Assembly: GCA_003576745.1 (NCBI GenBank)
Contig: QEVR01000001.1
Coordinates: 310,001-374,000, forward strand
Origin: Candidatus Uhrbacteria bacterium
GTDB lineage: Bacteria; Patescibacteriota; Patescibacteriia; 2-12-FULL-60-25
Length of the DNA: 64,000 nt
Direction: 5' to 3'
Under the pieces are notes generated by a model. The model made no database searches, was not told the DNA's origin, and saw only the letters and a program-made list of their open reading frames with translations. Of the stretch, positions 15,473-41,138 are shown piece after piece (the stretch's first letter is position 1; each line of letters begins with the position of its first letter). The position numbers and the translations under genes were made by a program.

Positions 15473-15898
15473 ATGCGCATGCGTCAATTGAATCTTCGAA
15501 TCTATACCGATGGCGGCGCCCGTGGAAATCCCGGTCCTGCCGGTATTGGCGCGGCTATTCTCGATGCGGATACGGGAGAAACATTAAAGGAAATAAGCGA
15601 ATACATCGGCGAGACCACGAACAATCAAGCAGAGTATCGCGCCGTTATTGCGGCGCTTACCGCTGCTTTGGATTTTCGTCCTGATGCGATTATGGTTGTC
15701 GCCGATAGCGAACTGCTCGTGAAACAGCTCACGGGTTCCTATCGCGTAAAAAATCCCGGACTCGCAGAGCGGTTCTTGGAAGTGAGAAATCTCGAAACGC
15801 GGCTCGGCATTCCCGTTCGCTACCGCCACGTCCGGCGCGAGCAGAACAAACGGGCAGATACCCTCGCGAACGAGGCGATGGATCGGGGGAGGAAGTAG
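15473..15898 (+). CDS. Ribonuclease H-like protein (RNase HI family)
   Basis: A 141-residue RNase H fold protein of the short type common in small genomes. The active-site acids are in YTDGGARGNPGPAG (Asp), TTNNQAEYRA (Glu), VVADSELLVKQL (Asp) and the final Asp of KRADTLAN; the His of YRHVRREQNK is also present. It would cleave RNA in RNA-DNA hybrids, for example primers. The alternative ATG at 15479 would remove two residues. The tail RGRK and the stop abut the mosaic repeat. Confidence 0.93.
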   Translation: MRMRQLNLRIYTDGGARGNPGPAGIGAAILDADTGETLKEISEYIGETTNNQAEYRAVIAALTAALDFRPDAIMVVADSELLVKQLTGSYRVKNPGLAERFLEVRNLETRLGIPVRYRHVRREQNKRADTLANEAMDRGRK

Positions 15899-16020
15899 GA
15901 CGTCGTTGCGTGGTTGCGTAGGGGAGCATAATTTTTCCCGTTCCCTTTGCCTTCAGCTCTTTTGCTAATTGCTAACAGCTCCCACCTACGATCTTCCCCA
16001 TAACCCGTAACTCTCTTCCT
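15895..16020. repeat. Intergenic mosaic repeat
   Basis: Words GTCGTTGCGTGGTTGCGTAG, a degenerate hairpin core at 15921-15939, TTGCTAATTGCTAACAGCTCC, CTTCCCCATAACCCGTAAC. It ends four bases before the promoter of the surface-protein gene. Confidence 0.8.
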
Positions 16021-16023
16021 TCG

Positions 16024-16032
16024 TGCTATACT
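16024..16032 (+). promoter_or_regulatory. Extended -10 promoter, leaderless arrangement
   Basis: TGCTATACT, with only 8 bases between the hexamer and the ATG at 16041. Transcription starts usually lie 6-8 bases past the hexamer, so the mRNA would begin at or next to the start codon. No ribosome binding site is seen. Confidence 0.7.
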
Positions 16033-16040
16033 ATTCCAGA

Positions 16041-17927
16041 ATGAAACGACGCAGGGTTGGGCGAAGAAAGCCGTCCCATGTCATCCCGACGCCGAACGGG
16101 AGATGGAACCGTGCGCACTATCAACTGATGGGCCTTTTTGGTGTTGCGGCGTTTGGTCTCCTCGTACTGAACATTGCACTTATCGCAACGGACATCCCTC
16201 CGGCGCAGGCCACTGCCTCCGAAAATGTGGAAGGATGGGCTTGGAGTTCAACAGGAGGCTGGCTTTCCATGAATAATACGAATGCCGGCGCCGGCGGAGG
16301 GAGCTATGGCGTACATATCGATCCCGTCACGAAGATGATGACGGGGTATGCCTGGTCGGATAATCAGGGATGGGTGTGTTTTGGATCCAGCTGCGCAGGA
16401 ACCACGCCTGCCGGCGGCGCATACAGCGCATCTGTTGACGGTTCCAATCGCGTACGTGGCTGGGCGCAGTTTTTGAATCTTGGGTCTCCTGACGGCGCAA
16501 TCTCCCTGAACTGTCTTGATACGGGGGGCGGCGGAAGCTGCGGCACGAGCTCCTACGGACCGACGATCAATTTCGCCTCCAACCCGGCAACCTTCAGCGG
16601 GTTTGCTTGGCACGGCGCCACGGGCTCGGGCATCGGCTGGGGCTGGATCGATTTTTCGTTCGTGACCATGAACAGCCAGTCGGAAGGGACCACCATCCCG
16701 AGCTGCCATGACGGCATCGACAATGACTTGGACGGCGCCATCGACTGCGCGGACAATGCCTGTTATCAGAATGAAGCCCTGTTGTGCCCGGCGTTTGAAA
16801 CCAATTGCGGGCTCATCGGTCATTCGAACTGTTGCAGCGATGGCGATGACGATGATAATGACGGCGCCATCGACTGCGCGGACACAGATTGTTCCAGCCA
16901 GCCCGTGTGCATGCCGGAGAATTGCACGGATGGCATCGATAACAATCTGGACGGCAATATCGACTGCGCGGATCCGCAGTGTACGTTTGCCCCAGCCTGC
17001 ACGCCGGAAATCTGCGACAATTCTTTTGACGATGATGGGGACGGCGCCCTGGATTGTGACGATTCGGATTGTTTTGGCGCGCCGGCCTGCACGCCCGCAT
17101 GGCTGCAGTCACAGTACGGCAATGTGTATTCCCAGCTCGGCGTGGAGGGGAATGCGCCTCCGGCGGGGACATCCTTCGCGACATACTGCATTACATCCGG
17201 CGGCCTCATTCATCCCGACTTTTCCAGCGCAACGCTCTGCAAGGAAGAATCGGTTTCGCAGATCCTCGATTTGCCGACCGGCGGATCCGGGTATGTCTCG
17301 AATCTCGGACGGCTTGATGTGGACGGCATATTGAGCGGGAGATACGGCCCCGTGGTCCTCATCGCCAATGACTCGGGGATTACGAATCCCATGAACGGAC
17401 GCATTTATCTATATGACGGGGATACGCAGGGCTGTTCCGCGCCGTTCCAGCTCGGAGCGAAGATTTTTCAGAATGCGAGCGGTCCGAATGCGCGGGGGAA
17501 TGGCCTCTTAGTGGTCAAAGGGTGTAATCTGCAGATTACCGGGGACTTGTCGTATCAGCCCACCGGCGTTTCGCAATATCTTCGCAACCTCGCATCCTTC
17601 GGCATGCTGGTGCTTGCCAAGTATTCGGGCGGGAGCCCGGTTTCGGGAACCGGCGAGGTGCTTATTTCGCCCGGCGTCGGACAGGTAGTGGGGACGATCT
17701 ATGCCGAGCGTTCCATCCGCACGGGCAGCACCGGCAGTCCGGCGACGGATATCCAGCTCAAGGTATATGGCGCTCTCGTGAGTCGGGAAATCCGTCTTGA
17801 GCGGCAGTACAGCGATCCAACACAGGCCGCGGAGGATGTTATTTTCGACGGCCGCGCGGTGGTGAATCCTCCGCCGGGATTTCAGGATATCAGCAAATCC
17901 CTGCCGTCATTATCCGATACCTTTTAG
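16041..17927 (+). CDS. Large secreted protein with Cys/Asp calcium-type repeats
   Basis: A 628-residue protein at the head of the type IV pilus cluster, 3 bases before pilM. A basic start precedes a hydrophobic segment (about residues 30-50) ending PPAQATA, which could be a signal peptide or a membrane anchor. Next come aromatic repeats (GWAWSSTGGW, GYAWSDNQGW, GWAQF; about 60-140). Residues 221-352 hold four units of the type C-DGxDNDxDGxIDCxD-x-C, resembling thrombospondin type 3 and other EF-loop-like calcium-binding repeats with paired cysteines. The C-terminal third is Gly-rich and beta-like. Context suggests a pilus-associated adhesin or tip protein, stabilised by calcium and disulfides; this is inference. 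The start is fixed by the promoter. Confidence 0.85.
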   Translation: MKRRRVGRRKPSHVIPTPNGRWNRAHYQLMGLFGVAAFGLLVLNIALIATDIPPAQATASENVEGWAWSSTGGWLSMNNTNAGAGGGSYGVHIDPVTKMMTGYAWSDNQGWVCFGSSCAGTTPAGGAYSASVDGSNRVRGWAQFLNLGSPDGAISLNCLDTGGGGSCGTSSYGPTINFASNPATFSGFAWHGATGSGIGWGWIDFSFVTMNSQSEGTTIPSCHDGIDNDLDGAIDCADNACYQNEALLCPAFETNCGLIGHSNCCSDGDDDDNDGAIDCADTDCSSQPVCMPENCTDGIDNNLDGNIDCADPQCTFAPACTPEICDNSFDDDGDGALDCDDSDCFGAPACTPAWLQSQYGNVYSQLGVEGNAPPAGTSFATYCITSGGLIHPDFSSATLCKEESVSQILDLPTGGSGYVSNLGRLDVDGILSGRYGPVVLIANDSGITNPMNGRIYLYDGDTQGCSAPFQLGAKIFQNASGPNARGNGLLVVKGCNLQITGDLSYQPTGVSQYLRNLASFGMLVLAKYSGGSPVSGTGEVLISPGVGQVVGTIYAERSIRTGSTGSPATDIQLKVYGALVSREIRLERQYSDPTQAAEDVIFDGRAVVNPPPGFQDISKSLPSLSDTF

Positions 17928-17930
17928 TAT

Positions 17931-19013
17931 ATGGGACTCTTCTCATCAAAAAAATCGCAACAAAGCTACCTTGGCCTGGATTTGGGTATGAGCGGCATCA
18001 AGCTCGTGGAATTATTGAATGAAAAAGGCCGGGCTCGTCTTGTGACATACGCGTATGCGGATTATCCGGACATGAAGACGGAAATGAATTATACGGAGAA
18101 ACGCCAGGAAACCGGCGAACTTATTAAGCGCATGGTCGCGCAGGCGAAAACCACCACGAAGCGCGTGATCGCGGCACTGCCTATTTCATCGGTTTTTTCG
18201 TCCATCATCAGCGTACCGGCCGAGAACGACAAGGAATTGAAAGACGCCGTGGAATGGCAGGCGAAAAAGCTTATTCCCATGCCTCTCGAAGAAATTTCCC
18301 TCGATTCAAAAACGCTCGACTCGGAAAGCGAGCCGGGAGAAAAGGGAAAAAAGGAAAAAGTCACGCGCGTGCTTCTTACCGGCGCGCCGAAAGGCCTCGT
18401 GAAGCGCTATGTGGAAATTCTGACGACAGCGGGACTTGAACCGCTCGCGCTCGAAACCGAAGCCTTTGCCCAAATCCGTTCGCTGGTGGGACGCGATCGT
18501 TCCACGGTCATGGTTATCGATATCGGCGCATTCCGGACGAATTTGACCGTGGTTGAGCGGGGGATTCCCTTTTTGAGCAGGAGCATTGCCACGGGCGGGA
18601 GCGCCATTACCACGACCATTTCGAAGACAATCGGCATTCCGTTCGAACAGGCGGAGACCATGAAACGAGATATCAAGGCCATGCAGGCATTTGCGCCGAC
18701 AGGTGACCTCTCGCCCATTCTCGAGACATTGCTCAAACCCGTCATAGACGAGATTAAATACTCCTTCAATCTTTATCAGGGACAACGTGGAAATGGCGGG
18801 GCTCCCAAACGCATCGATAAAATCATCGTCACGGGCGGTACATCGTTATTGCCGAGGCTTCCGGAATTCCTGACCGACCTCATGAATGTTAATGCATATC
18901 GCGGCGATCCATGGGCGCGCGTTGTGTATCCGGAAGATTTGCGTCCCGTCCTGGATGAAATCGGTTCGCGCATGGCTGTTGCCGTGGGATGCGCCATGAG
19001 GGACATCGAATAG
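17931..19013 (+). CDS. pilM: Type IV pilus assembly protein PilM
   Basis: A 360-residue actin-fold protein that sits on the inner face of the membrane and connects PilN to the assembly ATPase. The N-terminal YLGLDLGMSGIKLVEL (phosphate 1), MVIDIGAFRTNLTVV (phosphate 2) and VTGGTSLLPRLPEF (adenosine motif) define the FtsA/PilM fold. Length fits PilM (about 350). It starts the contiguous pilM-N-O-unknown-B-receiver run. No membrane helix. Confidence 0.94.
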   Translation: MGLFSSKKSQQSYLGLDLGMSGIKLVELLNEKGRARLVTYAYADYPDMKTEMNYTEKRQETGELIKRMVAQAKTTTKRVIAALPISSVFSSIISVPAENDKELKDAVEWQAKKLIPMPLEEISLDSKTLDSESEPGEKGKKEKVTRVLLTGAPKGLVKRYVEILTTAGLEPLALETEAFAQIRSLVGRDRSTVMVIDIGAFRTNLTVVERGIPFLSRSIATGGSAITTTISKTIGIPFEQAETMKRDIKAMQAFAPTGDLSPILETLLKPVIDEIKYSFNLYQGQRGNGGAPKRIDKIIVTGGTSLLPRLPEFLTDLMNVNAYRGDPWARVVYPEDLRPVLDEIGSRMAVAVGCAMRDIE

Positions 19014-19074: not shown

Positions 19075-20157
19075 ATGACGGATATCTCTCTCCTGCCCGA
19101 GAACATGCGCGGCAGGGAACAGGAAGAGCGAGCGTCGAGGCCGAAACCGGAAGAAACGGTTTCGGAAGGATTAAAAATGCATGTTCCGTCGGAAGAACCC
19201 GCCGAGGACATCGAAATTATCGAAGTCGACGAAAGCGAATTGGCATCCGTGCTGGCGGATGAACCATTCATGACGCGTCTTACATACCAGATCTCGCTCG
19301 GCATCGATAAGGTGAAAGAGACGCTGTTCGCAAAAAAAGCGGCTGCACCGCCTCCAAAACTTCCCCCGCAATTTTTTACGCCGCCGAAGGCAGGCCTGGT
19401 CACCAAACCGGGCGCGCCTAAAGAAGCCGCCGGAGCGCCGGCAAAACCGTCGCGACCGGGCGTGCGCATTACACCGTCGGCAACGGCGCCAAAGCGCGTT
19501 CGTGTTATCCGTCGCGTACGGAAGCCTGTGCGCGTGAGCCTCATCTCCGCCAGGGAATTGGCCGTACTTACGGTAAACATCCCCAAGCGGAAGTGGACGC
19601 TTCTGGTGGTCGGCGTCATGTTCGCGGCAATTCTGGGCGGCGGATTTTTCTTTCTCCGGGACCGCGTGCGCGTTTCCGAATCTCGGCTCGCAGAGATCCG
19701 GAAGGATATCGATCAGACCCGCGCCGCGAGCAGGGAGAAGCTTGCCATATGGAGCCAGTACGAGGATTTGCAGCAGAGGCTTACCATGCTCGGCGACGTA
19801 CTGAATAATCACATCGTCATCAGCCGTGTATTCGATTTTCTCGAAATGAGAACATTGCCCGACGTTTCCTATCGGTCGGCGACCTTTTCGCAGGACGGAA
19901 GGCTTATCTTGGACGTCATCGCAGGCAGTTACGATGCCGCCGCGCGACAGCTGGTGGCATTTGAAAGCAGTCAGATGGTGCAGAGCGTTGACGCAACGCA
20001 GTTCACCGCGCAGGAAAGCGGTGAGGATGGTTCCATGCAGGTGACATTCCAGTTGCTCGTGGGTTTGAACCCCGCCGGATTGAGAGGCCCGCTTCTGGCG
20101 CGGGATCGTGATCGCTCTATGACTCTCACGACTTCAGGCATTACTACCGCTCCCTAG
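19075..20157 (+). CDS. pilN: PilN-like type IV pilus assembly protein
   Basis: A 360-residue bitopic protein. The start MTDISLLPENMR is the conserved PilN N-terminal motif that binds PilM. An unusually long linker follows (about residues 13-175), first acidic and then rich in Pro, Ala and Lys. The membrane segment is WTLLVVGVMFAAILGGGFFF (about 180-200), then a coiled coil and a beta-alpha domain typical of PilN. Ordinary PilN is about 180-200 residues, so the spacer is an insertion. It lies between pilM and a pilO-like gene. Confidence 0.85.
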   Translation: MTDISLLPENMRGREQEERASRPKPEETVSEGLKMHVPSEEPAEDIEIIEVDESELASVLADEPFMTRLTYQISLGIDKVKETLFAKKAAAPPPKLPPQFFTPPKAGLVTKPGAPKEAAGAPAKPSRPGVRITPSATAPKRVRVIRRVRKPVRVSLISARELAVLTVNIPKRKWTLLVVGVMFAAILGGGFFFLRDRVRVSESRLAEIRKDIDQTRAASREKLAIWSQYEDLQQRLTMLGDVLNNHIVISRVFDFLEMRTLPDVSYRSATFSQDGRLILDVIAGSYDAAARQLVAFESSQMVQSVDATQFTAQESGEDGSMQVTFQLLVGLNPAGLRGPLLARDRDRSMTLTTSGITTAP

Positions 20158-20169
20158 TGAACGCGCGCT

Positions 20170-20928
20170 ATGCCCGACTTTTTGCACGAGGATCAAAACG
20201 CCATTGTCCCGCCCTCACCCGCGGGTGCTTCGGGCAAACGCGGCCGCCGTCGTTTCGAGGGCGCATCGCCGCAAGCGGAAGCGAAAAACGAACAGGAACC
20301 GGAAGACAAGAAAGAGCCGTCGGTATTGTTCACGCAATACTACGGTTCCGTATTTCTGCTCGTCACTGCGGCATTTCTGGGGAGCGGGTATCTTCTTCTC
20401 TATCCGCTTGTCCGTTCATTTAAAATGCTGGATCGCGATATCCGCAATCAGAACGAGGTGCTTCAGGACGAGCGGGCGTATTTGAACAGTCTGGACCAAT
20501 CCATTGCGGCCGCGCAAGCGATTCCCGAGGAGACTATTGATCGCGTGAATGAGGCGTTGCCGCGAACCATCGGCATCCCGAAACTGCTTCAAAATATGTC
20601 CCTTATCGCGGATGAAAACGGCGTAAAGCTGAACAGCGTCCAGTTCAACGCCGTTCCGCCGGAGGAGGCGGCTTCCCAGCGTGGACGCACCATACGCATG
20701 AGGCCTCTTGATTTGAACATTACGCTGTTTTCGCCCGGCTACCGGCAGACGCGCGCATTTCTGGAGGACCTGGAAACCAATCTTCGCGTTATGGACGTAA
20801 AGAATATTGCAGTGAACGCGAATGAACAGACGGGCGAATTGTCCTACGCGATTCTGCTCACGGCGTATTCCATTGAGCCGGCGCCGACCTCTGCTCCGAC
20901 TACGGCCGCCGCCTCCGCAGCACCCTAA
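20170..20928 (+). CDS. pilO: PilO-like type IV pilus assembly protein
   Basis: A 252-residue bitopic protein. A polar, charged N-terminus (about 50 residues) leads to the membrane helix YGSVFLLVTAAFLGSGYLLLYP, then a coiled coil (KMLDRDIRNQNEVLQDERAY) and a small ferredoxin-like domain, with an Ala/Pro/Thr tail. This is the standard PilO layout, and position after pilN supports it. PilO pairs with PilN through the coiled coil. Sequence similarity in PilO is low, so naming rests on layout and synteny. Confidence 0.8.
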   Translation: MPDFLHEDQNAIVPPSPAGASGKRGRRRFEGASPQAEAKNEQEPEDKKEPSVLFTQYYGSVFLLVTAAFLGSGYLLLYPLVRSFKMLDRDIRNQNEVLQDERAYLNSLDQSIAAAQAIPEETIDRVNEALPRTIGIPKLLQNMSLIADENGVKLNSVQFNAVPPEEAASQRGRTIRMRPLDLNITLFSPGYRQTRAFLEDLETNLRVMDVKNIAVNANEQTGELSYAILLTAYSIEPAPTSAPTTAAASAAP

Positions 20929-20930
20929 GC

Positions 20931-22265
20931 ATGGACACGAAACGATCCCTCCTTCTGTATCGCATATCGCTTGTCGTCTCGGCGCTGATCTTTTTAGGCG
21001 TTCTTTTTTGGGTCGCCATGCGATTTTTTGAGCCGGCGCCGTTCGCGGAGCCGCCGTTGCAGAAATCAAGAATCGTTTTTAACCCGAAATTCGATATCCG
21101 TTCCCACGTGTTATTCCAAGGGTTGCGCGCCTTTGTCACCGGGAGCGTGGAGCCAGGCATTCTCGGGCGGCCTGTGCCTTTTGCCGGACCGCAGGAGGCG
21201 CTACAGCTCGAATCCGGCCAAACCTCTCGGCTTGCGATTGCGGAAGAGATCCCGCTTTTCGGCGGGAGAGCCATAGACATCACGCCCGCCTCCGACGGCG
21301 CCATGCTTGCTTTGCTCGCGGGCAGGGCCGGAGAAGGGGAGACGCTGTATGAAATCCGTTCCTATGCGGCAAACGGTTCGGTTCGGACCATTTCCTCGTG
21401 GATGGCGAGCGCCGTGGCTGATTTGGAACCCGTTCGATTCGCGCAGGACAGTAGCGGCCTCATTTGGCTTGGTAGCGGCGCGGGGCGTATTGGGACGCTC
21501 ACGGACGGGTCGCCGCCTCTTTGGAAACCGGAAACGGATATCCGGCTATTTTCCGGCGTTCGACAAATGGTCTTCGATGACGCCATGCGCCTGTGGGTTA
21601 CGGACGGATTTCATGTGTCAGTCGGCATGGGTGAGGGGTTGACGCCGCTTGATATTTACGGCCGCATGACGGATGCGGACCGCATAATCCTCGGCAATCA
21701 GCTTACGCAAATACCGGAAGCCGTACGTCCGCTTCCCATGGAAGGTCCGGACGGGCTCCTTAAGGCTTCGCTGGTTCCGGAACGCCTGTTTGCGAGAGCG
21801 GACGGCGGCATGAGCCTGAATACCGGCTATGCGATCCTGCAATTTTCTTCTGCGCTCGAAAAGCCGCCCCAACTCATCAACACGCTCGCCACGAGCAGTC
21901 TCCCTATCGCGGCAGCGCCGAATGGCGATGTGTGGGCGGAACGGTATACGGACGGGGGCATCCTCCGCATATGGGCCACGGGTACGCGCTCGTATGCGGG
22001 CGCGCCCATTCCGCGCCAGGCTGTTTCTCATCCGGAGCTCTTCGCTTCCGATCGAAATGCGCTCTTTGCCCTGGATTATTCGCCGACATCTACCGTGTTA
22101 TGGTCCACGAAGGGATCGGAATGGCAGGCGCAGGTCGTTGCCGCTTCCGGTACCATTCCGGCAGATACGCCGGTAAAGGTGAGTATCGACGGAGGAGGCA
22201 ATATGTGGGCGATATTCGTTCAAGGAGGTCTGCTCCGGATACAGAAAGGCGCTGAATCGCCCTAA
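20931..22265 (+). CDS. Uncharacterised membrane-anchored protein in PilP position
   Basis: A 444-residue protein 2 bases after the PilO-like gene. One N-terminal membrane anchor (ISLVVSALIFLGVLFWVAM) is followed by an exported region of repeated beta segments of about 45 residues: SSGLIWLGSGAGRIGTL, AMRLWVTDGFHVSV, NGDVWAERYTDGGILRIW, GGNMWAIFVQGGLLRIQ. The WxxxxGxL pattern resembles propeller blades of the two-component-regulator type. It does not look like PilP. It is translated with the pilus genes and may be an extracytoplasmic accessory of the PilN-PilO complex; this is inferred from position. Confidence in the gene is high, in its role low. Confidence 0.75.
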   Translation: MDTKRSLLLYRISLVVSALIFLGVLFWVAMRFFEPAPFAEPPLQKSRIVFNPKFDIRSHVLFQGLRAFVTGSVEPGILGRPVPFAGPQEALQLESGQTSRLAIAEEIPLFGGRAIDITPASDGAMLALLAGRAGEGETLYEIRSYAANGSVRTISSWMASAVADLEPVRFAQDSSGLIWLGSGAGRIGTLTDGSPPLWKPETDIRLFSGVRQMVFDDAMRLWVTDGFHVSVGMGEGLTPLDIYGRMTDADRIILGNQLTQIPEAVRPLPMEGPDGLLKASLVPERLFARADGGMSLNTGYAILQFSSALEKPPQLINTLATSSLPIAAAPNGDVWAERYTDGGILRIWATGTRSYAGAPIPRQAVSHPELFASDRNALFALDYSPTSTVLWSTKGSEWQAQVVAASGTIPADTPVKVSIDGGGNMWAIFVQGGLLRIQKGAESP

Positions 22266-22271
22266 TACGGT

Positions 22272-24056
22272 ATGGACGAACAGATTCTTCAGTTGCTCAT
22301 ACAGCAGGGATCGCTTGCCGAAAAAGACGCGGCGGCCGTGCGGGATTTGATGGCCCGCGGGAAATCGCTCGAACAAGCGGCGGTCGGGGGTCGGTATGTC
22401 GACGAAAAAGTTTTCACGAGAGCCCGCGCGGATGCATCGGGTTTGCCGTTTGTAGACCTCGAGAGCTGGGAAATGCCCGAAGGCACCATGGAGCTCCTTC
22501 CGGAGGAGGTCGTGAAAACCTATCACGCCCTTCCGCTCGGCATGGATGGAGATACATTCGTGTATGCCCTGCTCGATTCGCGCGATATACGGGCGGAAGA
22601 AGCCATCGATTTTTATGCGGCGGGAAAGGGGTGGAAACTTCGACAGGTGCTTGTGCCGCCGTCTCAACTGAAAAAGTTTCTCAATATCGGAAGCGGCATC
22701 GGGACGGAAATACAAACCACGCTCGCCGAAGTGAGCGCCGAACGAAAACGGGAACGCGAGGCGGCGGAGGAAGAAGTCGAGAACCTGCAGGAGCTCATTA
22801 AGGGCGCGCCGGTTGCGCGCATTGTGCAATCCATCATGAGGAATGCCGTGGAAGAGCGCGGATCAGACATTCATATCGAACCCGTGGGGGATCACAGTCG
22901 CGTCCGGTATCGTATCGATGGCGTGCTTCGGAATGTCTTGGAGCTCCCTATTAACGTTCATCCGGCCCTGGTGGCGCGCATCAAAGTTTTGGCCAATCTC
23001 AAACTCGACGAAACGCGTGTGCCGCAGGACGGCCGTATCCGTCAGACGTATGGTGATAAAAAAATTGACTTCCGTATTTCGGTTCTCCCCGTGGTGGACA
23101 ATGAAAAAGTCGTCATGCGTATTCTCGATACGTCCAAGGGGGCGCCGACGTTGGAACAGCTTGGGTATCGAACGGAATTTATTCAGGTGATTAAGGAGGA
23201 AATCAAAAGATCCCACGGCCTGTTTCTCGTTACCGGTCCCACCGGTTCGGGAAAATCCACAACCCTTCAATCTTGCCTGTCGCTGTTGAACGATGAGGGC
23301 GTGAATATTTCCACGCTGGAAGATCCGGTCGAATACTATATTCCCGGCGTCAATCAATCGCAGGTGCGGCCCGAAATCGGATATACCTTCGCCACGGGCC
23401 TCCGATCTCTGCTCCGCCAGGATCCCAATGTCATCATGGTGGGCGAAATCCGCGACCGAGAAACCGCGGAGCTGGCCATCCATGCCGCGCTTACCGGACA
23501 CCTCATTTTTTCCACCCTGCACACGAATAATGCATTCGGTCTTGTGCCGCGACTTACGGATCAGGGCGTGCAGCCGTTTCTTTTGGCCGCCACCATGAAT
23601 ATCGGCATTGCCCAGCGGCTGGCCAGGCGCATTTGCGAGGCCTGCAAAGACGTGCAGGAACTCGATGCGGTGACGATGGAGCATCTCAAACGCGAGCTTT
23701 CCGCTATCCCCAAAAAGTACTTCCACCAAGGCATGGACCCCTCGAATCCGGTTTTTTACCACAGCAAAGGCTGTCCGAAATGCAAAGGAACGGGATATTC
23801 CGGCCGCGTTGCCGTCGCAGAAATCTTTTTATTCACCGAACGCGCGCGGCGGCTGGTGGAAAAAGGATTTCCTATTGAACAGGCGAAAGAGGAGGCAAAA
23901 AAACAGGATATGATCAGCGTCCGTCAGGACACCCTCTTAAAGGCCCTTGAAGGTATGACGACGATCGAGGAAGTGTACCGCTTGTCCCAGGAAACCTCGG
24001 AAGAGGAAGAAAGCGAAGGAGGGAACGCCGCGAGCGCCGTAACATCTCCCGCATAA
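22272..24056 (+). CDS. pilB: Type IV pilus assembly ATPase PilB (GspE family)
   Basis: A 594-residue hexameric motor that powers pilus extension. Residues 1-150 form the N1-type domain; the RecA-like core has Walker A GPTGSGKSTTL (near residue 321), the Asp box, Walker B in IMVGEIRDRETAE and the His box HAALTGHLIFSTLHTNNA. The zinc motif with CEAC and later CPKCKGTGYSGR is present, as in PilB/GspE. Length is typical. Acidic Glu/Ser tail. Six bases after the propeller-like gene. PilT, the retraction motor, is not in the window. Confidence 0.97.
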   Translation: MDEQILQLLIQQGSLAEKDAAAVRDLMARGKSLEQAAVGGRYVDEKVFTRARADASGLPFVDLESWEMPEGTMELLPEEVVKTYHALPLGMDGDTFVYALLDSRDIRAEEAIDFYAAGKGWKLRQVLVPPSQLKKFLNIGSGIGTEIQTTLAEVSAERKREREAAEEEVENLQELIKGAPVARIVQSIMRNAVEERGSDIHIEPVGDHSRVRYRIDGVLRNVLELPINVHPALVARIKVLANLKLDETRVPQDGRIRQTYGDKKIDFRISVLPVVDNEKVVMRILDTSKGAPTLEQLGYRTEFIQVIKEEIKRSHGLFLVTGPTGSGKSTTLQSCLSLLNDEGVNISTLEDPVEYYIPGVNQSQVRPEIGYTFATGLRSLLRQDPNVIMVGEIRDRETAELAIHAALTGHLIFSTLHTNNAFGLVPRLTDQGVQPFLLAATMNIGIAQRLARRICEACKDVQELDAVTMEHLKRELSAIPKKYFHQGMDPSNPVFYHSKGCPKCKGTGYSGRVAVAEIFLFTERARRLVEKGFPIEQAKEEAKKQDMISVRQDTLLKALEGMTTIEEVYRLSQETSEEEESEGGNAASAVTSPA

Positions 24057-24708: not shown

Positions 24709-25914
24709 ATGTCCACATTCAAGTATCGCGTACGCACACAGGACGGCCAGGTGCAGGCCGGCATGGTTGAGGCGCCCGCGATGGATGCCGCGCAGGGGGC
24801 TCTTGAGGATCGCGGCTATGATATTCTTTTGTTGGAGCCGTTCCATGAAACGCTCACGCAGCGTTCCGTTTCGTTCTTCAATCGCATCAAGCCAAAAGAC
24901 ATTGTGGTGGTTGCGCGGACGCTGTCCGTGATGGTTTCCGCATCCGTTCCGCTTGTGGATGCCATAAAAAACATCGCGCGCCAAACGGAAAATCCCTCAT
25001 TAAAGGCGATTATGCTTAGTGTTGCGGGGGAGGTGGAGGCGGGCGCCCGGCTCTCGGATGCCATGGAAAAGCATCCAAAGGTATTCAGCGGGTTTTTCGT
25101 GAATATGATTCGATCCGGCGAAACATCCGGACAGCTCGAGCAGGTCCTCGAATATCTTGCCGACCAGCAGGAAAAAGACTATGACCTCACGAGCAAAATC
25201 AAGGGAGCGCTTATTTATCCTGCGTTCATTTTGAGCGCGCTCTTTATTGTAGGATTTATCATGATGGCATTCGTTGTGCCGACGCTCACGCAGATTCTGA
25301 CGGAGGCCGGGCTCGATCTTCCCATTGCCACGCGCATTCTTATTGCCGTTTCCGGCTTTTTTAATAAATTCTGGTATCTTATTCTCATCGCCCTTGCGAT
25401 CATCGCGATCGTCCTTCGCATCGCCGTACAGTCGCCCGGCGGACGTCTAACATGGGATACGCTGAAGCTGAAAATCCCCATTTTCGGCATGCTTCTGGAA
25501 CGCATTTACGTTGTCCGTTTTTGCCGTTCACTCGCTACGCTCCTACATGGAGGCGTGGATCAAGTGAGCGCGCTCGAAATCGTCGCGAATGTCGTCGGCA
25601 ACCAGGTTTGGAAACGCATGGTCTTCGAGACCATTCAGGAAGTGAATGAGGGAAACTCGATCACCACGGCATTCGAGCGCAGCAAACATGTGCCTTCCAT
25701 GATGAATCAGATGCTCGCGGTAGGAGAGGAAACAGGCAAATTACAGGAAGTGCTGAATCGCGTTGCGGCTTTCTTTAATCGCGAGGTGGACAATTTGGTG
25801 GCGAACCTTGTAACGCTCATCGAACCCGTCGTCATGGTCATGCTCGGTATCGGCGTGGGTGTCATGGTGTCGGCCATTCTTCTTCCGCTCTATCAGCTTT
25901 CATCGGCGGTGTAA
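24709..25914 (+). CDS. pilC: Type IV pilus inner-membrane platform protein PilC (GspF family)
   Basis: A 401-residue polytopic protein that links the motor to the growing pilus. Two homologous cytosolic GspF domains each precede membrane segments; the first has MSVSAGEVEAG-like ...LSVAGEVEAGARLSDAME, GFFVNMIRSGETSGQLEQVL, and the second VPSMMNQMLAVGEETGKLQEVL. Hydrophobic helices lie around residues 165-190, 215-240 and at the end (VVMVMLGIGVGVMVSAILLP). Length is normal. Separated from the pilM-B run only by a mosaic repeat. Confidence 0.95.
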   Translation: MSTFKYRVRTQDGQVQAGMVEAPAMDAAQGALEDRGYDILLLEPFHETLTQRSVSFFNRIKPKDIVVVARTLSVMVSASVPLVDAIKNIARQTENPSLKAIMLSVAGEVEAGARLSDAMEKHPKVFSGFFVNMIRSGETSGQLEQVLEYLADQQEKDYDLTSKIKGALIYPAFILSALFIVGFIMMAFVVPTLTQILTEAGLDLPIATRILIAVSGFFNKFWYLILIALAIIAIVLRIAVQSPGGRLTWDTLKLKIPIFGMLLERIYVVRFCRSLATLLHGGVDQVSALEIVANVVGNQVWKRMVFETIQEVNEGNSITTAFERSKHVPSMMNQMLAVGEETGKLQEVLNRVAAFFNREVDNLVANLVTLIEPVVMVMLGIGVGVMVSAILLPLYQLSSAV

Positions 25915-27895: not shown

Positions 27896-28666
27896 ATGTT
27901 ATTTTTGAGCGCGATCTTCCTTCTTCTCCTGGGCGCATCACTCGGGTCTTTTGCGAATATGCTCATCGTCCGCTTGAAAACGGGCGAATCCGTGGGCGGG
28001 CGTTCGCACTGCGTGTCCTGCAAAAAACCGCTGAAAGCTCTTCATTTGCTTCCGGTGATTTCGTGGTGCTATCTTCGCGGCAAATGCGCATATTGTTCCC
28101 GGAGTATTCATTGGCACTATCCGGCCGTAGAGGTACTCATGGCCGTATTCGCCCTCATCGCTTTTTTACGGCATGTTCCCGTTGCATCCCCATATCAATG
28201 GGGTGTCATAGGATTTGAAATCGCGCTGTCTTTTTGCCTCGTCGTCATCGCCGTCATGGATTTGCGCTGGAAACTGATTCCCATGGAATTCACCGTGGTA
28301 TCGGCTATGGTACTGGCGGCATGGAGAGTCCTTCTCGGCGTTCCGTGGCTGGAACTTATTATCGGAGCCATTGTCATAAGCGCGCTTCTGGCAGCCATCG
28401 TGGCGTTGTCGCGCGCGACCATGATGGGGGAGGGAGACCCCGTTCTTGGCCTTCTTATGGGTGTTGTGCTTGGTTTTCCGCAGGCGTTACTTGGTCTTTT
28501 GGCTTCGTTTATTGTTGGCGGAACTGCCGCGCTCGCCCTTCTTATGGGCGGATGCGTTGACCGGAAAACACAAGTGCCATTCGCTCCGTTTTTGGCGATC
28601 GGAACCCTGATCGCCTTATGGTGGGGCGGACCGCTTGAGGTGATATTCCGGTATGCCTTACTCTAA
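27896..28666 (+). CDS. pilD: Prepilin peptidase / N-methyltransferase PilD
   Basis: A 256-residue polytopic aspartyl protease that removes prepilin leaders and methylates the new N-terminus. The N-terminal GASLGSFANMLIVRL and the zinc-type CVSCKKPL ... CAYCSR cysteine pairs (methyltransferase loop) are present. The two catalytic aspartates are in VMDLRWKLIP and GEGDPVLG. About seven membrane segments. Length is typical. Its gene overlaps the next one by 14 bases, which ties it to the minor-pilin operon. Confidence 0.96.
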   Translation: MLFLSAIFLLLLGASLGSFANMLIVRLKTGESVGGRSHCVSCKKPLKALHLLPVISWCYLRGKCAYCSRSIHWHYPAVEVLMAVFALIAFLRHVPVASPYQWGVIGFEIALSFCLVVIAVMDLRWKLIPMEFTVVSAMVLAAWRVLLGVPWLELIIGAIVISALLAAIVALSRATMMGEGDPVLGLLMGVVLGFPQALLGLLASFIVGGTAALALLMGGCVDRKTQVPFAPFLAIGTLIALWWGGPLEVIFRYALL

Positions 28667-29372
28667 CCAGAGAGCATCAAACAAAAACATCGCGTATCGC
28701 GGAGCGTTCGGTATTCCGGGTTTTACGCTTGCGGAGCTCATGGTGAGCATCGCGATTCTTATTATTATCTCTTTGGCGGTTGCGGGAGATATTACGCGCA
28801 CGCGTTTTCAGGAAGAGCTTAATTCGTCCGCGCGGCTTTTGCTCGGGACGCTCCGCGATACGCAGGCGCAAGCGCTTGCCGTGAAAGGCGTCAAAACCTG
28901 CCTGGAGGACGGAGGTACGCGGCGTGTATGCGAAACAGGAACGGCGGGATGCGCGGCGGGGACTTGTCCGGATATCACGGCTCCATATGCCGTGGGCGTG
29001 ACCTTGAATGTAAGCGCGACAGGCGTTTCCGTATTTGCGGACGTGGACGCCGCGTTTAATGACCGCCGCGAACTCGCGAATACCCGCGAGCTGGTCCGTG
29101 CTGACGCGTTTCTTACCGGGAATACCGGCAGCAGATATGTCACCGTAAATGCCCTGCGTTCCGGCCCCGTGAATTTTTCAAGCGCCACCGTCACCTTTGA
29201 GCGGCAGAACGGCCGCATGCGCATCAATGCCTGCGATGATCCGCCCGGCGCGCCTTCCTGCGCCGGCAGTCCCGAACCAACGACGCTGGAAATCGATCTC
29301 ATCCATTCACGGACAAATCAGATAAAAACTATACGATTAAACGCCATTACGGGAAAAATCTCGCTTGAATGA
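28653..29372 (+). CDS. Minor pilin (GspH-like)
   Basis: A 239-residue pseudopilin. A long leader of about 23 residues ends in G-FTLAELMVSIAILIIISLAVA with Glu at +5. The mature part continues RTRFQEELNSSARLLLGTLRDTQAQALAV, like GspH/FimT N-terminal stalks. Four cysteines (TCLED, RVCET, GCAAGTC) cluster in the middle, and AC/SC in the C-terminal half. It overlaps pilD upstream and the next gene by 4 bases, so it is part of a tight operon. Confidence 0.9.
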   Translation: MPYSNQRASNKNIAYRGAFGIPGFTLAELMVSIAILIIISLAVAGDITRTRFQEELNSSARLLLGTLRDTQAQALAVKGVKTCLEDGGTRRVCETGTAGCAAGTCPDITAPYAVGVTLNVSATGVSVFADVDAAFNDRRELANTRELVRADAFLTGNTGSRYVTVNALRSGPVNFSSATVTFERQNGRMRINACDDPPGAPSCAGSPEPTTLEIDLIHSRTNQIKTIRLNAITGKISLE

Positions 29373-30052
29373 GTATGAAGGCCAAGCAAAGGACATCGCG
29401 GCCGAAGCGTTTGGCTCCGGCGAAGAACATTGCAGAGTGGCGTCACAGGGGTGTTCTCCGCGGGCAATCTCTTATCGAGCTTTTGATTGCCATGACGGTG
29501 ATTATCGTGGGCCTTACGGCAGCGGGCAGCTTGATATTTTCCAATATTCGTCTGCAGGAGCAGAGTACGGAACGGGTGATCGCCTCCAACTTGGCGCGCG
29601 AGGGCGTTGAACTTGCCAAGGCGGCTCGCGATTCAAACTGGCTCGCAGGACTCCCATTCGACAATGGCCTGTATGAACCGACCGAACCCGATTATACAGC
29701 GGTGCCGCGTATGGATGGCGGGGAATTTATTGATTTCGAGTTCGGACCCGATCTGTCTGTTCCGTCTCCCGCCCTACGCATGAAACGTTCTGCGGCCGCT
29801 TCCAGCACCGGACTGTTCGTTCAGGGGACGGGATCGACTGGATCGGATACGCCATATGAACGGATCATGATCCTCCAGCCTATTTGTAGCGACGGCGTTT
29901 CGCAGGTTCAAGCTTCCGACGGCCAGACATGCAATAATGTTCTTGCGGGTTCGACGAAAATAGGGATACGCGTCCTGTCCCGCGTGAGCTGGACCAGCCG
30001 CGGAATAAACCGGTCCACATACATTGTGGACGAACTTTATGACTGGCGATAA
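29369..30052 (+). CDS. Minor pilin (PilV-like), atypical cleavage site
   Basis: A 227-residue pseudopilin with an unusually long basic leader of about 32 residues. The site reads RG-QSLIELLIAMTVIIVGLTAAG; the +1 Phe is replaced by Gln but Glu at +5 is kept. The stalk NIRLQEQSTERVIASNLAREGVELAK matches the PilV/GspI type. Start at 29369 overlaps the previous stop (ATGA). Gln at +1 is unusual; whether PilD processes and methylates it is open. Confidence 0.88.
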   Translation: MSMKAKQRTSRPKRLAPAKNIAEWRHRGVLRGQSLIELLIAMTVIIVGLTAAGSLIFSNIRLQEQSTERVIASNLAREGVELAKAARDSNWLAGLPFDNGLYEPTEPDYTAVPRMDGGEFIDFEFGPDLSVPSPALRMKRSAAASSTGLFVQGTGSTGSDTPYERIMILQPICSDGVSQVQASDGQTCNNVLAGSTKIGIRVLSRVSWTSRGINRSTYIVDELYDWR

Positions 30053-30659
30053 GCATTATGCGCGCCCGTTTGGGTTCCGCGCACACGGAAGGGGTTTTAC
30101 GGTCATGGAATTGCTCGTTGTCGTTCTCATTTTCGCCCTCGGATCCCTTGCTGTTTCTGCCACGTATATTAATTTTACCCGTCTGCATCGGCGGGCGGCG
30201 AATGCCGAAGCCCTCGGGGAAGAACTGCGTTTCGTCATGGAGCTTTTGGTGCGCGCCGCGCGAAACAATACCGTGGAGTACCCGTCTCTTCCCGGAGCTC
30301 TGTCCCTTCCCCTGGAACAGCTTGATCTCAAGAACACGGCAGGAGGAACAACGTCATTCACGAAATTGCCGTCCACGGATCCGGCATGCGCAGGGCTCGG
30401 AGCCGATTGCCTCGCGCTGTCATTCGACGGTGGAGCCACATGGACGCCCGTGTCCGGGAAAAACATTCAGATCGACCGTTTCGACGTCTACGTGACGCCC
30501 AGAAAAAATCCGTTTCAGTCTGTGGGACTGTCATATGATAATGATATTCAGCCGCGCATAACCTTTGTGATCGATGCCAGACATCTCGCAAAGAGCCCCA
30601 GAGAAATACCGAGTTTAAGTCTGCAAACGACGGTGTCGAGCCGCGTGTATCTTCGCTAG
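30039..30659 (+). CDS. Minor pilin (PilW/GspJ-like)
   Basis: A 206-residue pseudopilin with leader ending RG and site G-FTVMELLVVVLIFALGSLAVS. The stalk TYINFTRLHRRAANAEALGEELRFVMELLVRAARNN resembles PilW/GspJ. The C-terminal half has strands and a Cys pair (PACAGLGADC). The ATG at 30039 is used; a TTG at 30024 is also in frame. It overlaps the previous gene by 14 bases and is followed after one base by a PilX-like gene. Confidence 0.9.
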   Translation: MTGDKHYARPFGFRAHGRGFTVMELLVVVLIFALGSLAVSATYINFTRLHRRAANAEALGEELRFVMELLVRAARNNTVEYPSLPGALSLPLEQLDLKNTAGGTTSFTKLPSTDPACAGLGADCLALSFDGGATWTPVSGKNIQIDRFDVYVTPRKNPFQSVGLSYDNDIQPRITFVIDARHLAKSPREIPSLSLQTTVSSRVYLR

Positions 30660-30660
30660 T

Positions 30661-31446
30661 ATGAAACTCCTCCGCGCCAATATTTTGCCGCTCGCTCTTG
30701 TTATCATGACTACCATTCTTTTGGGCGGCATCGGGTTGGGTATTGTGGTGTTAAACAGCTTGCGTCGCACGGCGGATGTTGATGCGTCCATGTCGGCGTA
30801 TTATGCGGCGGATGCGGGCGTGGAGCGCCAGATTTTCGAACTCCGAAAGCGAAATACCACGGTATCAGCTCTTTCGGATCTCGGGGATACATTTGACGCG
30901 AATGGCGCGGTGTGGCAGGCGAATACGGCGGCGTTTTTGCAGACGGATCAAAAAATGTACCCCGTCGTGAATCAGGGAGATTTCGAAGTAGTGGATTTGA
31001 TCGATCCGGACAATGTTGGCGCCGCCGCGGGAATTAACCAGGTGCAATGGTCCTGGAGCGGCCCTCCCGGTTGCGAGGTGGAGCTCGGTATCGGCGAGAT
31101 CGACATCGCAGGCGGAACGTTTCTTCCGACGTCTTTCCAGCTCGTTCGTGGACTATCAAGTCCGTGGACGCAGGCGCTGAATCCGCTTCAGGCGTATCGC
31201 CTCCGATTTCAGCCACGGCGATGCTCGGTAACAAATCTTCAGGTACGCGTATATTCGGGTGGATCGCAAGTGCCGTTCCCGGGCGACATTAGCGTGGGGG
31301 CGCAGGGGTCGTTCAAACAAACAACGCAGAATATTAGTGCGACCATTCCGCGGCAGGATATTTTGAGCGGCGTATTCCAGTTCGTGATTTTCAGCGAGTG
31401 CTCGCTCATTAAAGACCCGCTCGCCGGCGCGCCTGCATGTCCGTAG
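30661..31446 (+). CDS. PilX/GspK-like pilus accessory protein
   Basis: A 261-residue protein with an N-terminal membrane segment (ILPLALVIMTTILLGGIGLGIVVL) and the hallmark SAYYAADAGVERQIFEL that follows the stalk in PilX-type proteins. No canonical G-F-E prepilin site is seen, which is usual for PilX. The remaining 200 residues are beta-rich with two cysteine pairs (GCEVE, RRCSV; ECSLI, PACP). It ends the minor-pilin operon; the terminator follows 77 bases later. Confidence 0.82.
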   Translation: MKLLRANILPLALVIMTTILLGGIGLGIVVLNSLRRTADVDASMSAYYAADAGVERQIFELRKRNTTVSALSDLGDTFDANGAVWQANTAAFLQTDQKMYPVVNQGDFEVVDLIDPDNVGAAAGINQVQWSWSGPPGCEVELGIGEIDIAGGTFLPTSFQLVRGLSSPWTQALNPLQAYRLRFQPRRCSVTNLQVRVYSGGSQVPFPGDISVGAQGSFKQTTQNISATIPRQDILSGVFQFVIFSECSLIKDPLAGAPACP

Positions 31447-31572: not shown

Positions 31573-33288
31573 TCAGCCGCCTCCGGCCGCTCCGGCTGCG
31601 CCATCGGCAATGGCGTCCGTATCGGCATCTGTGCCTGTATCTGCATCCGCATCCGTATCGGCATCTGCGCCGGCTTCCGGCGGGATGTAGGTGATTTCGA
31701 TGGCACGGGTAACGCTTCGGAGCGATTCCGTGACAAAGAGCACCGGATACAGGGGGTCGGCCACGAGATCATTGAAGTTCCCGCCGCCGATGAGGATTTC
31801 CTGCGCGCTGTAGTCGCGTTCGATAATGCCGGTATTGCAGAGCGCCGGCAGAAGGGCGGCGTAGGCGGGACTCGTAAGCGCGAGCCAGTCGTCCACCGTT
31901 CCACTCGTTTCATTGTACGCGGCAATGACCGGCGGGGAGAGGATGGTCGTGCAGTTCAGGTCCGCTCGTGGATTCAGGGCAAGGAATAGAACGCCATTCG
32001 GCGCCTGCACCAGGCCCGTGAACGCCCGCGGCGTCTGGAAAAGCATGGTTTTTGCCGAACCGTCAGGCTTGATTTTCCACACCGAGCCGGACAGGTGGTC
32101 TCCGAACAGGAAGTCGCCGTCTGTCGCGAGCGTGAGCACGTTCGCGGTTCCCGGCATGAGAATGATCTGCGCGCCCGCATCGTCGCTTCCGACCACGGCA
32201 TAGCCCTGGGTGAGCATGCGCGATCCCCCGCTGATTTCCGTGAGGACGCTTTGCGTTCCCGCGGCGGGATCCACGGCAATGATCCGAACCGGATCGTGCT
32301 CGACGAGCAGGGAAGGATCGCTTGCTCCTCCCGCCGCATTCCAGGAATCCTGCGTCCATGTCCGGGACGTGCTCACGATGACGGTATTTCCGGAACCGCA
32401 GGCAATGCCTGACAGGCCGGCATACCCGGTGTCGTGATTCGTGCGCGGATATCCGGCATCGGCGTCCAGGGAGACCCGAATAAGCGTGCCTGATGCATTC
32501 GACACAAGGTATGCGCTATTGCCGCACAGCGCGCTTTTAAGGGCGAGCCCGGTGATGGTGGACACGGTTGCGCCATCGATCTCGATATTGTCTTTCCGGG
32601 CAAGGACGGTTGATGCTCCGAAGAAGCCGTCGATGTCCGCCGCCGTAAAGACGGGAACATTGCTCACGGTCTGCGTGCAGTCCGCCAAATAGAGCCTGGC
32701 GTTTTCGATGAGGTTCCCCGAGAGCGGACATTGTCCGCTTTGATCGATCGGCTCGAATACCGGAATGGTCGGCAGGGCCAGGTTCACGCTCGTGGTCGAA
32801 ATCCCTGACAGATCGAAGTCTGGGGACCCCGCTGTGTAGGAAGATGCGCATCCGGCATCCGTGGCCGCTTCCGGCGACGCGTCTGCGCCTGCATCGGCTT
32901 TGCCTGCGGCATCGCCGCCCGCAGCTCCTGCCGCGCCGTCGGCATCCGCATCCGTGCCTCCATCCGCGGGCGGGCATTTGTTTTCGCCCGACAGCGTCTG
33001 AAAAACCAGCCGGGAGCTCATGCCCTGCACATGCGCCATGCGCTGTCCGATTTCCGTCACGGAACCGGGAATCCCGGGGCCTTGGCCCCATGCGCCGGAT
33101 GCGCCTGCACTTCCGTCCGGAATTGTTCCGCCCGATCCGCCGGTAATCGACTGATCCGGTCCGGCATCGGGCGGCTGGCCTCCCGCTCCGCCCGTGACGG
33201 CGGAAGACGGACCCGCGTCATCTCCACCGCAATTCACGGCGAGAATGAGCGCAATGGCCGCAGCCAAAAGCTTATGCGTTTTGTTCAC
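31573..33288 (-). CDS. Lipoprotein with Asp/Ala/Gly low-complexity segments
   Basis: A 571-residue protein. The signal peptide ends in LAVNC, a lipobox, so it should be lipid-modified and surface-held. Low-complexity tracts follow: Gly/Pro/Asp-rich (about 25-75), Asp/Ala-rich (about 110-145) and a C-terminal DADTDADADTGTDADTD tract. Between them lies an ordered region with repeated beta units (SAYLVSNASGTLIRVSL, GDFLFGDHLSGSVWKI, GVLFLALNP) that looks like a propeller. GTG start at 33288 is supported by AGGAGG 8 bases before it. Such Asp/Ala/Gly lipoproteins are common in Myxococcota; transfer is possible but unproven. Confidence 0.85.
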   Translation of the reverse strand: MNKTHKLLAAAIALILAVNCGGDDAGPSSAVTGGAGGQPPDAGPDQSITGGSGGTIPDGSAGASGAWGQGPGIPGSVTEIGQRMAHVQGMSSRLVFQTLSGENKCPPADGGTDADADGAAGAAGGDAAGKADAGADASPEAATDAGCASSYTAGSPDFDLSGISTTSVNLALPTIPVFEPIDQSGQCPLSGNLIENARLYLADCTQTVSNVPVFTAADIDGFFGASTVLARKDNIEIDGATVSTITGLALKSALCGNSAYLVSNASGTLIRVSLDADAGYPRTNHDTGYAGLSGIACGSGNTVIVSTSRTWTQDSWNAAGGASDPSLLVEHDPVRIIAVDPAAGTQSVLTEISGGSRMLTQGYAVVGSDDAGAQIILMPGTANVLTLATDGDFLFGDHLSGSVWKIKPDGSAKTMLFQTPRAFTGLVQAPNGVLFLALNPRADLNCTTILSPPVIAAYNETSGTVDDWLALTSPAYAALLPALCNTGIIERDYSAQEILIGGGNFNDLVADPLYPVLFVTESLRSVTRAIEITYIPPEAGADADTDADADTGTDADTDAIADGAAGAAGGG

Positions 33289-40436: not shown

Positions 40437-41138
40437 ATGCAAACAACAGATCCTCGCAAACCTCTCATTATCGGGATTATCGCCATGGGCATTCTGGTCT
40501 TTGCTGGAATCGTCTGGGCCGTGGCCTTTGCGCCAACGGAACGGAGTGCAGGCGCTCCGGAAGCCAATCTCGCATTTGATGACTCGAATGATCCTGCGTA
40601 CGGGCCCGATAATGCGAAGATCGTGGTCCGCATGTTCGAAGATTTCCAATGCCCCGCCTGCCGGGCGGCAAAAGCCGGCGTGGATTATGCAAAAAAGAAA
40701 TTCGGCGATCGTGTAAAATTCGTCTGGGTTGATTTTCCGCTCCAATCCGTGCACCTCAATGCGCGTATCGCCGCGAATGCCGCACGATGCGGGGAAGAGC
40801 AGGGTTTGTTCTGGGAATATCATGACATCCTCTTTGATTTTCAACCGAATTGGGCGGAATCGAAAAATCCCACGGCGGAATTTACGGACCTTGCGCGTAA
40901 GACGGGTTTGAATGAAGGTGCGTTCACGGCATGTTTGAATGCGAGAACGTACGATGACAAGATTGTAAAGGACATGGAGGAGGGGAGGGCAAACAATGTT
41001 CAGGCGACCCCGACATTTTTTATCAATAAAACGCGCGTATCAGGCGCGCTCTCGGCTGCGGACTGGGACAAATACCTTTTGCCTTTGCTGAATATGGCAT
41101 CGGCGTCGCAGGAAGCGGGAGAATCCTCCGAACAATAA
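40437..41138 (+). CDS. Membrane-anchored DsbA-like thioredoxin-fold protein
   Basis: A 233-residue protein. A membrane anchor (PLIIGIIAMGILVFAGIVWAVAF, about residues 9-31) is followed by an exported domain with the redox motif FQCPACR (CPAC) and the cis-Pro loop ATPTFFINK. The DsbA_4-type helical insertion lies between. It probably oxidises or isomerises disulfides of exported proteins, such as the Cys-rich pilins. The ATG at 40437 is right before the anchor. Confidence 0.9.
   Translation: MQTTDPRKPLIIGIIAMGILVFAGIVWAVAFAPTERSAGAPEANLAFDDSNDPAYGPDNAKIVVRMFEDFQCPACRAAKAGVDYAKKKFGDRVKFVWVDFPLQSVHLNARIAANAARCGEEQGLFWEYHDILFDFQPNWAESKNPTAEFTDLARKTGLNEGAFTACLNARTYDDKIVKDMEEGRANNVQATPTFFINKTRVSGALSAADWDKYLLPLLNMASASQEAGESSEQ

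Follow-up and report, generated by a model that had tools for sequence, protein, structure and literature searches.

We describe a family of pilus-associated surface proteins, represented in the window (the whole 64,000-nucleotide stretch of DNA analysed) by the product of the first gene of a pilus operon, here labelled SURF. The family is what is new; the repeat within it had already been named by NCBI, and open-licence PubMed Central texts yielded no description of the family itself. Directly established are the position of the SURF gene in the operon, its conservation upstream of pilM, its joint presence with the platform gene, and the architecture of its sequence. We give an even chance to the reading that SURF is an accessory type IV pilus protein acting like PilY1 or ComZ, that is, located at the tip without being a pilin.

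The SURF gene and its operon

The gene was placed correctly, both in coordinates and at the head of the pil operon, by the first-pass annotation (Table 1). Starting with ATG at 16041, its reading frame runs uninterrupted to the stop codon at 17925-17927; an alternative GTG start is possible upstream at 16023, and 3 bp separate the stop from the start of pilM. The operon continues with a pilN-like gene, pilO, a gene for a membrane protein at the pilP position, pilB, a response regulator, pilC, three pilin-like genes, pilD, three minor pilin-like genes and a PilX-like gene. The names pilN, pilC and PilX-like are assumed from position and from the usual gene order; the gene at 24709..25914 we take to be pilC from position and orthology rather than from a family profile. 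In 28653-31446, the first three genes matched N_methyl, and the PilX-like name comes from position and N-terminus only. A retraction ATPase gene, above the pilT_fam cut-off, is located elsewhere in the genome (G000:C3:440204-441217). The genome is 1.06 Mb in four contigs and 97% complete, and the source bacterium is tiny and probably host-dependent. A promoter scan of 15700-16300 revealed one promoter-like site, at 16248 within the SURF gene, and no usable site upstream of it.

The two DsbA-like proteins noticed at first reading are real: thioredoxin-fold proteins encoded at 40443-41138 (+) and 42235-43020 (-) match Thioredoxin_4 and DSBA, and are candidates for oxidising the SURF cysteines.

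Table 1 Coordinates of SURF, its segments and the accompanying pilus genes
Feature	Coordinates	Strand	Description
SURF	16041..17927 (stop codon counted)	+	628-aa exported surface protein, first gene of pilus operon
Likely type I signal peptide	16041..16211	+	residues 1-57, cut after Ala57 as judged from the site pattern
GWAW domain	16218..16676	+	residues 60-212, aromatic-rich, predicted beta-rich
Cys/Asp unit 1	16704..16787	+	residues 222-249
Cys/Asp unit 2	16833..16910	+	residues 265-290
Cys/Asp unit 3	16923..17000	+	residues 295-320
Cys/Asp unit 4	17013..17090	+	residues 325-350
C-terminal domain	17094..17924	+	residues 352-628, predicted ComZ-like / ice-binding-like beta-solenoid, conserved tail
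pilM	17931..19013	+	PilM_2, E 9.8e-42
pilN-like gene	19075..20157	+	by position; without Pfam match
pilO	20170..20928	+	PilO, E 4.7e-6
Membrane protein at pilP position	20931..22265	+	genus-specific C-terminal extension
pilB, assembly ATPase	22272..24056	+	T2SSE, E 1.3e-119
pilC, platform protein	24709..25914	+	presumed from position and orthology
Three minor pilin-like genes and PilX-like gene	28653..31446	+	presumed docking partners of SURF

Occurrence of SURF with pilM and pilC

Relatives of SURF that carry names come mostly from Candidatus Uhrbacteria and other Patescibacteria. Within the family (Ca. Uhrbacteria and kin), 26 of 41 genomes gave matches at E 0.001, and orthologs were counted in 24, with G013 and G038 left out for weak matches confined to the repeat region. 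The next gene was pilM in 22 of the 24 carriers, comprising 20 fetched loci (gap of -2 to 15 bp), the window and one genome with a broken-reading pilM. In the remaining two, G015 and G037, SURF reaches the contig end, and in G015 a SURF tail lies directly before pilM on a different contig. Outside the family, pilM was next in 11 of 14 named loci (20-375 bp), with two more at contig ends and ligA next in L136; outside the class, it was next in two of the four fetched loci (L167 and L168; not G391 or L174). A 25,343-aa open frame in G391 was first taken for a giant SURF and then dropped as a run of N, because the stretches retrieved contain no stop in any of the six frames. Five loci (L124, L125, L127, L129 and L132) hold a tandem SURF pair before pilM, one protein of 470-558 aa and a giant of 1315-1563 aa; Pfam gave only weak Big and Wzt_C matches, below cut-offs, for the five giants.

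The pilM locus was fetched for 15 of the 17 family genomes without SURF. At these loci, several of them short stretches, blastp at 1e-5 detected no pilN, pilO, pilC or minor pilin genes, and two held a pilB-like ORF at just 26-31% identity. At the outset, the finding of unrelated proteins here in close relatives had been named as evidence against the reading; the site where SURF would stand was found to be mostly empty. Both rnhA and pilM were on the contig at 11 of these loci, at most 150 bp apart in eight; the exceptions are L086 and L091, with other ORFs between the two genes, and L095, with an unread 0.8 kb gap. Most of these loci (L081-L095) retain pilM, the response regulator and a pilin-like gene, and often pilD.

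An ortholog of pilC (53% identity or more) was present in 24 of the 41 family genomes. SURF and pilC occurred together in 23 and were both missing from 16, with SURF only in G008 and pilC only in G023 (39 of 41 concordant). Both exceptions look like assembly gaps: these assemblies consist of 170 and 130 contigs, respectively, the G008 contig stops before pilC, and G023 also lacks a pilM ortholog. On a pilM tree of 37 rows, omitting G003 and G019 (pilM too short) and G023 and G039 (no ortholog), the SURF label requires one change; the pattern of presence and absence in the family therefore counts as a single event, for which the tree cannot separate gain from loss.

The comparison was extended to a draw of 285 genomes from the class, in counts that ignore relatedness among genomes. 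With SURF at E 1e-20 and the main pilC at 1e-90, 128 genomes had both, 12 SURF only, 51 pilC only and 94 neither; with SURF at E 1e-10, the numbers were 139, 21, 40 and 85. The cut-offs were our own choice (SURF E 1e-10 to 1e-40; main pilC, best E 1e-90, with G192 at 7.3e-90 scored as not main). SURF was matched in 160 of the 285 genomes at E 1e-10, a few of them through repeat units alone; the match was placed in the repeats only in G113, G178 and G255, of which at least G178 is among the 12 with SURF and no strong pilC. Carriers and non-carriers are mixed in 23 of 86 class families, 11 of which are fully concordant with pilC and 12 not, in a count of 278 of the 285 genomes that leaves out seven without a pilC match, not listed by name. 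By family majority, 35 families had both, 3 SURF only, 20 pilC only and 28 neither. The pilus linkage proposed at first reading is thus borne out by synteny and by joint presence with pilC, and SURF tends strongly to accompany the pilus. At least a fifth to a quarter of main-pilC pili are without detectable SURF, and it is not required for every pilus, since it was missing from 51 of the 179 main-pilC class genomes at E 1e-20 (40 at 1e-10). In G006, G007, G010, G022 and G024 a further pilM/pilC pair was observed that is divergent (identity of about 27-33%) and has no second full-length SURF match to go with it.

Architecture of the SURF protein

SURF comprises a likely signal peptide, one GWAW domain, four Cys/Asp units and a C-terminal domain. 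Two alignments were analysed, A1 with 20 rows and A2 with 29 rows (P0001, the window protein, and 28 relatives). The presumed -1 residue of the signal peptidase site is Ala in all 20 rows of A1 and in 28 of the 29 of A2; the presumed -3 residue is A, V or T throughout A1 and one of A, V, T, C or S throughout A2. At residues 22-49 (28 residues in the model), the hydrophobic helix exceeds the usual length of a signal peptide, and it could remain as a membrane anchor. Neither of the two signals that the first-pass annotation had suggested looking for was found: a prepilin-like (class III signal peptide) motif was present by motif pattern in none of the 29 A2 rows, and no sortase signal (LPXTG-type motif with hydrophobic tail) was present among the last 30 residues of the 29 rows. 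N_methyl gave no Pfam match in SURF or the 29 aligned proteins. Pfam returned nothing for full-length SURF at E 1 and nothing for any of the 29 aligned proteins at 0.01, and the PilY1 domain (PF05567) was accordingly missing from P0001 and from the aligned proteins at these same thresholds. Judged by sequence, SURF is not a pilin, not a member of the PilY1 family and not sortase-anchored. Foldseek with the SURF model and a search of a viral fold library gave no match at E 0.001, and a PHROGs search gave none. All 26 cysteines lie C-terminal of residue 112, and the earlier description of a disulfide-rich extracytoplasmic protein is supported. Mean pairwise identity is 0.51 for the C-terminal domain, 0.47 for the GWAW domain and 0.40 for the repeat region; the GWAW and C-terminal domains are the conserved core of SURF, and the Cys/Asp units a variable insert.

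The aromatic GWAW motifs first read as repeats are present, not as repeat units but within one domain (residues about 60-212). Modelled alone, this domain reached pLDDT 85 and pTM 0.83. Foldseek and VIA returned only barrels for it (HphA, factor H binding protein, TbpB and avidins; Z <= 7.9), and since the barrel is a common arrangement we claim no fold.

The Cys/Asp units follow the pattern C-x13-C-x4-C from residues 222, 265, 295 and 325, and the NCBIfam model NF033662 (acidic double-disulfide repeat) matched four stretches of SURF (97.9 bits against a cut-off of 41, E 1.9e-28), in agreement with the four units originally counted. NF033662 was matched by 24 of the 29 aligned proteins at E 0.01; in SURF it covers the units only, the remainder of the protein lying outside the model. 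Across the alignment, 82 units of this spacing occur in 25 of the 29 proteins; 200 letter-shuffled sets averaged 1.1. The number per protein ranges from 0 to 6. By spacing, four of the deepest A2 relatives (L126, L133, L134 and L137) have none and L131 has one. The same acidic Cys/Asp repeats are matched by other proteins, in open frames of 807-1180 aa, at G027:C2, G032:C4, G033:C2 and G024:C30.

The nearest solved structure by sequence is the C-rich domain of teneurin-4 (7plp), a module employed by teneurins in the nervous system of animals, at E 0.002 with whole SURF and 2.4e-4 with the units alone; the Foldseek superposition of the SURF model on 7plp spans 30 columns, with 1.3 A and 47% identity (E 3.7, short chain). 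The structural report on the teneurin domain describes three disulfides and three calcium ions, which are held by N844, backbone and eight acidic residues (PMC9058538). Seven of the eight acids (E835 left out) and N844 were scored for D/N/E in the 82 units of 25 proteins, giving 74 units at D840, 73 at D843, 74 at N844, 78 at D845, 68 at D847, 81 at D851, 81 at D854 and 30 at D856. Six of the eight scored positions are therefore D/N/E in 73 to 81 of the 82 units, and a seventh in 68. SURF units and the teneurin domain share the cysteine spacing, two matching disulfide pairs and calcium-ligand positions; they differ in that teneurin has six Cys in a single copy, whereas SURF has four per unit and the family 0 to 6 copies. 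As read from the aligned residues, the units preserve most of the calcium ligands of teneurin, along with the cysteines for two of its three disulfides, which lends substance to the original term calcium-type repeats and suggests that they bind calcium. Being a variable insert that is absent from most of the deepest relatives, the units are likelier to be a stalk than the conserved portion of SURF that does the work.

The C-terminal domain is both the most conserved segment by mean pairwise identity and the best-modelled part, with block pLDDT of 91-97 over most of residues 431-560. The top VIA match of its model was ComZ of Thermus thermophilus (PDB 6qvi; Z 13.4, 3.6 A, 213 aligned), followed by twenty rows of ice-binding proteins (DUF3494; Z 10.3-12.0); later rows scored below 8 and fell mostly on the GWAW domain. 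The region, noted earlier as Gly-rich and beta, is predicted from the model to be a beta-solenoid of ComZ-like / ice-binding-like fold, an arrangement that it would have in common with the ice-binding-like solenoids DUF3494, choice_anch_A, pAdhesive_15, DUF7305 and tapirin. Weak profile matches were obtained in the aligned proteins to choice_anch_A (3.3e-4, 1 of 29), tapirin (0.052, 1 of 29), DUF7305 (0.047, 2 of 29) and pAdhesive_15 (0.1, 1 of 29); the window SURF itself matched none of these solenoid families, DUF3494 included, and profile comparison of the C-terminal domain against the PDB gave nothing at E up to 10. Tapirins were considered as relatives of SURF and set aside, the two Foldseek rows (ranks 6 and 41, probability 0.03 or less) and the single profile match being too weak; a literature search for tapirin with type IV pili and cellulose found nothing. 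The C-terminal tail contains DGRAVVNPPPG and SLP; its conservation is strong, and the last residue is Phe in most family members.

Proposed role and alternative explanations

The favoured reading, that of a tip protein, is consistent with comparisons to two known pilus proteins. In ComZ, a beta-solenoid likened to an ice-binding protein is inserted in a pilin fold, and the authors argue that only a location at the pilus tip fits (PMC6561018). ComZ and SURF share a large beta-solenoid, an association with type IV pili and the resemblance to ice-binding proteins; they differ in that ComZ is a pilin, whereas SURF has no prepilin motif and no sequence match to it, and has an added GWAW domain and the Cys/Asp units. 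The tip protein PilY1 / PilC has a type I signal peptide, a variable N-terminal part and a conserved C-terminal domain, and is encoded with pilus genes (PMC7541494). SURF has a similar order of parts, the signal peptide being likely by pattern, and a similar neighbourhood of pilus genes, but lacks the PilY1 domain. A search of the class matched PF05567 in 0 of 285 genomes, a figure that does not show absence because the control search also matched 0 of 14. The tip adhesin first proposed thus gains indirect support from the ComZ-like solenoid and PilY1-like layout, but its tip position and its binding of a partner ligand are inferred.

In the proposed pathway, Sec would export SURF, signal peptidase I would cleave it at the conserved A-x-A site, behind A57, and its cysteines would be oxidised outside the cytoplasm, perhaps via the two nearby DsbA-like proteins. 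By analogy with the teneurin-4 domain, calcium binding would turn the Cys/Asp units into a stiff stalk of variable length. The conserved C-terminal solenoid and tail may dock on the minor pilins of the same operon, helping to start or cap the pilus, while the GWAW domain, the faces of the solenoid or both may contact a partner cell, a surface or DNA.

The 28-residue helix of the model would also suit an anchored part of the pilus machine, in which the helix stays uncut and the domains outside the cytoplasm line the outlet of the pilus in the envelope, or guard it, replacing parts that are present on the outer side in other bacteria. Such a part would account for the constant position beside pilM and the joint presence with the platform gene, and inspection of the gene list noticed no secretin gene in the operon. 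However, an uncut anchor does not need the A-x-A site, which is kept in 28 of 29 rows, and a unit number of 0 to 6 together with giant versions would be unusual in a machine part; we consider this explanation unlikely. A general surface adhesin or coat protein, located in the operon yet unrelated to the pilus itself, is doubtful to a greater degree: that SURF directly precedes pilM across families and classes, and that 11 families show fully concordant SURF/pilC contrasts, argue against it, although about a quarter of main-pilC class genomes are without detectable SURF and relatives carry similar repeats in other proteins.

The solenoid raises the further question of whether SURF has the role of ComZ as DNA receptor for a competence pilus; ComZ is its best structural match (Z 13.4) and binds DNA (PMC6561018). 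A fold in common with ComZ proves no function, and many ice-binding proteins of the same fold score almost equally (Z 10-12). The DNA-binding lysines of ComZ are described as lying between the pilin and solenoid domains (PMC6561018), whereas SURF has no pilin domain, and the acidic Cys/Asp units speak against DNA at that part of the protein. A DNA receptor therefore appears improbable, the most so of the explanations weighed here.

Returning to the tip protein, a broader and distinctly tentative proposal is that many Patescibacteria have a separate, unnamed tip protein in the role of PilY1, in which the solenoid would prime or cap the pilus, the GWAW domain would form a head and, in some lineages, a teneurin-type module would provide a calcium-locked stalk. 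SURF might then be the part of the pili that recognises the partner, with stalk length and giant versions as sources of variation. Host recognition in Patescibacteria is the wider question, to which SURF offers one definite gene, of a family with no Pfam model, a constant operon position and a wide distribution in the class. Because it is exported, disulfide-rich, probably calcium-stiffened and tends to be kept or lost with the pilus machine, SURF is a good, unstudied candidate for the pilus part that contacts the partner cell. Pili have been implicated in host recognition by one cultivated patescibacterial lineage, and in Nanosynbacter lyticus (Saccharibacteria) PilX1 and PilX2 are reported to have extra C-terminal domains and no predicted PilD signal, with PilX2 proposed as the adhesin (PMC12206443). 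These proteins resemble SURF as patescibacterial pilus proteins with extra domains and without a PilD signal; they differ in being described as pilin-like, with a jelly roll or a propeller.

Two other proteins were observed along the operon. Immediately after the PilX-like gene, on the opposite strand, 31573-33288 (-) encodes a 571-aa Gly/Ala/Asp-rich protein that looks secreted by eye and has no match in Pfam or NCBIfam. The gene flanked by pilO and pilB (20931-22265) codes for about 430-445 aa, both in the window and in three relatives of its genus, at 35-37% identity over the full length, and the protein at this place in 18 other family loci is only 117-177 aa and matches the first 83-123 residues of the window copy alone. 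The extra part of the window copy gives weak lectin-propeller matches (NCBIfam 0.0014), and the protein may be regarded as a second candidate adhesin, particular to this genus.
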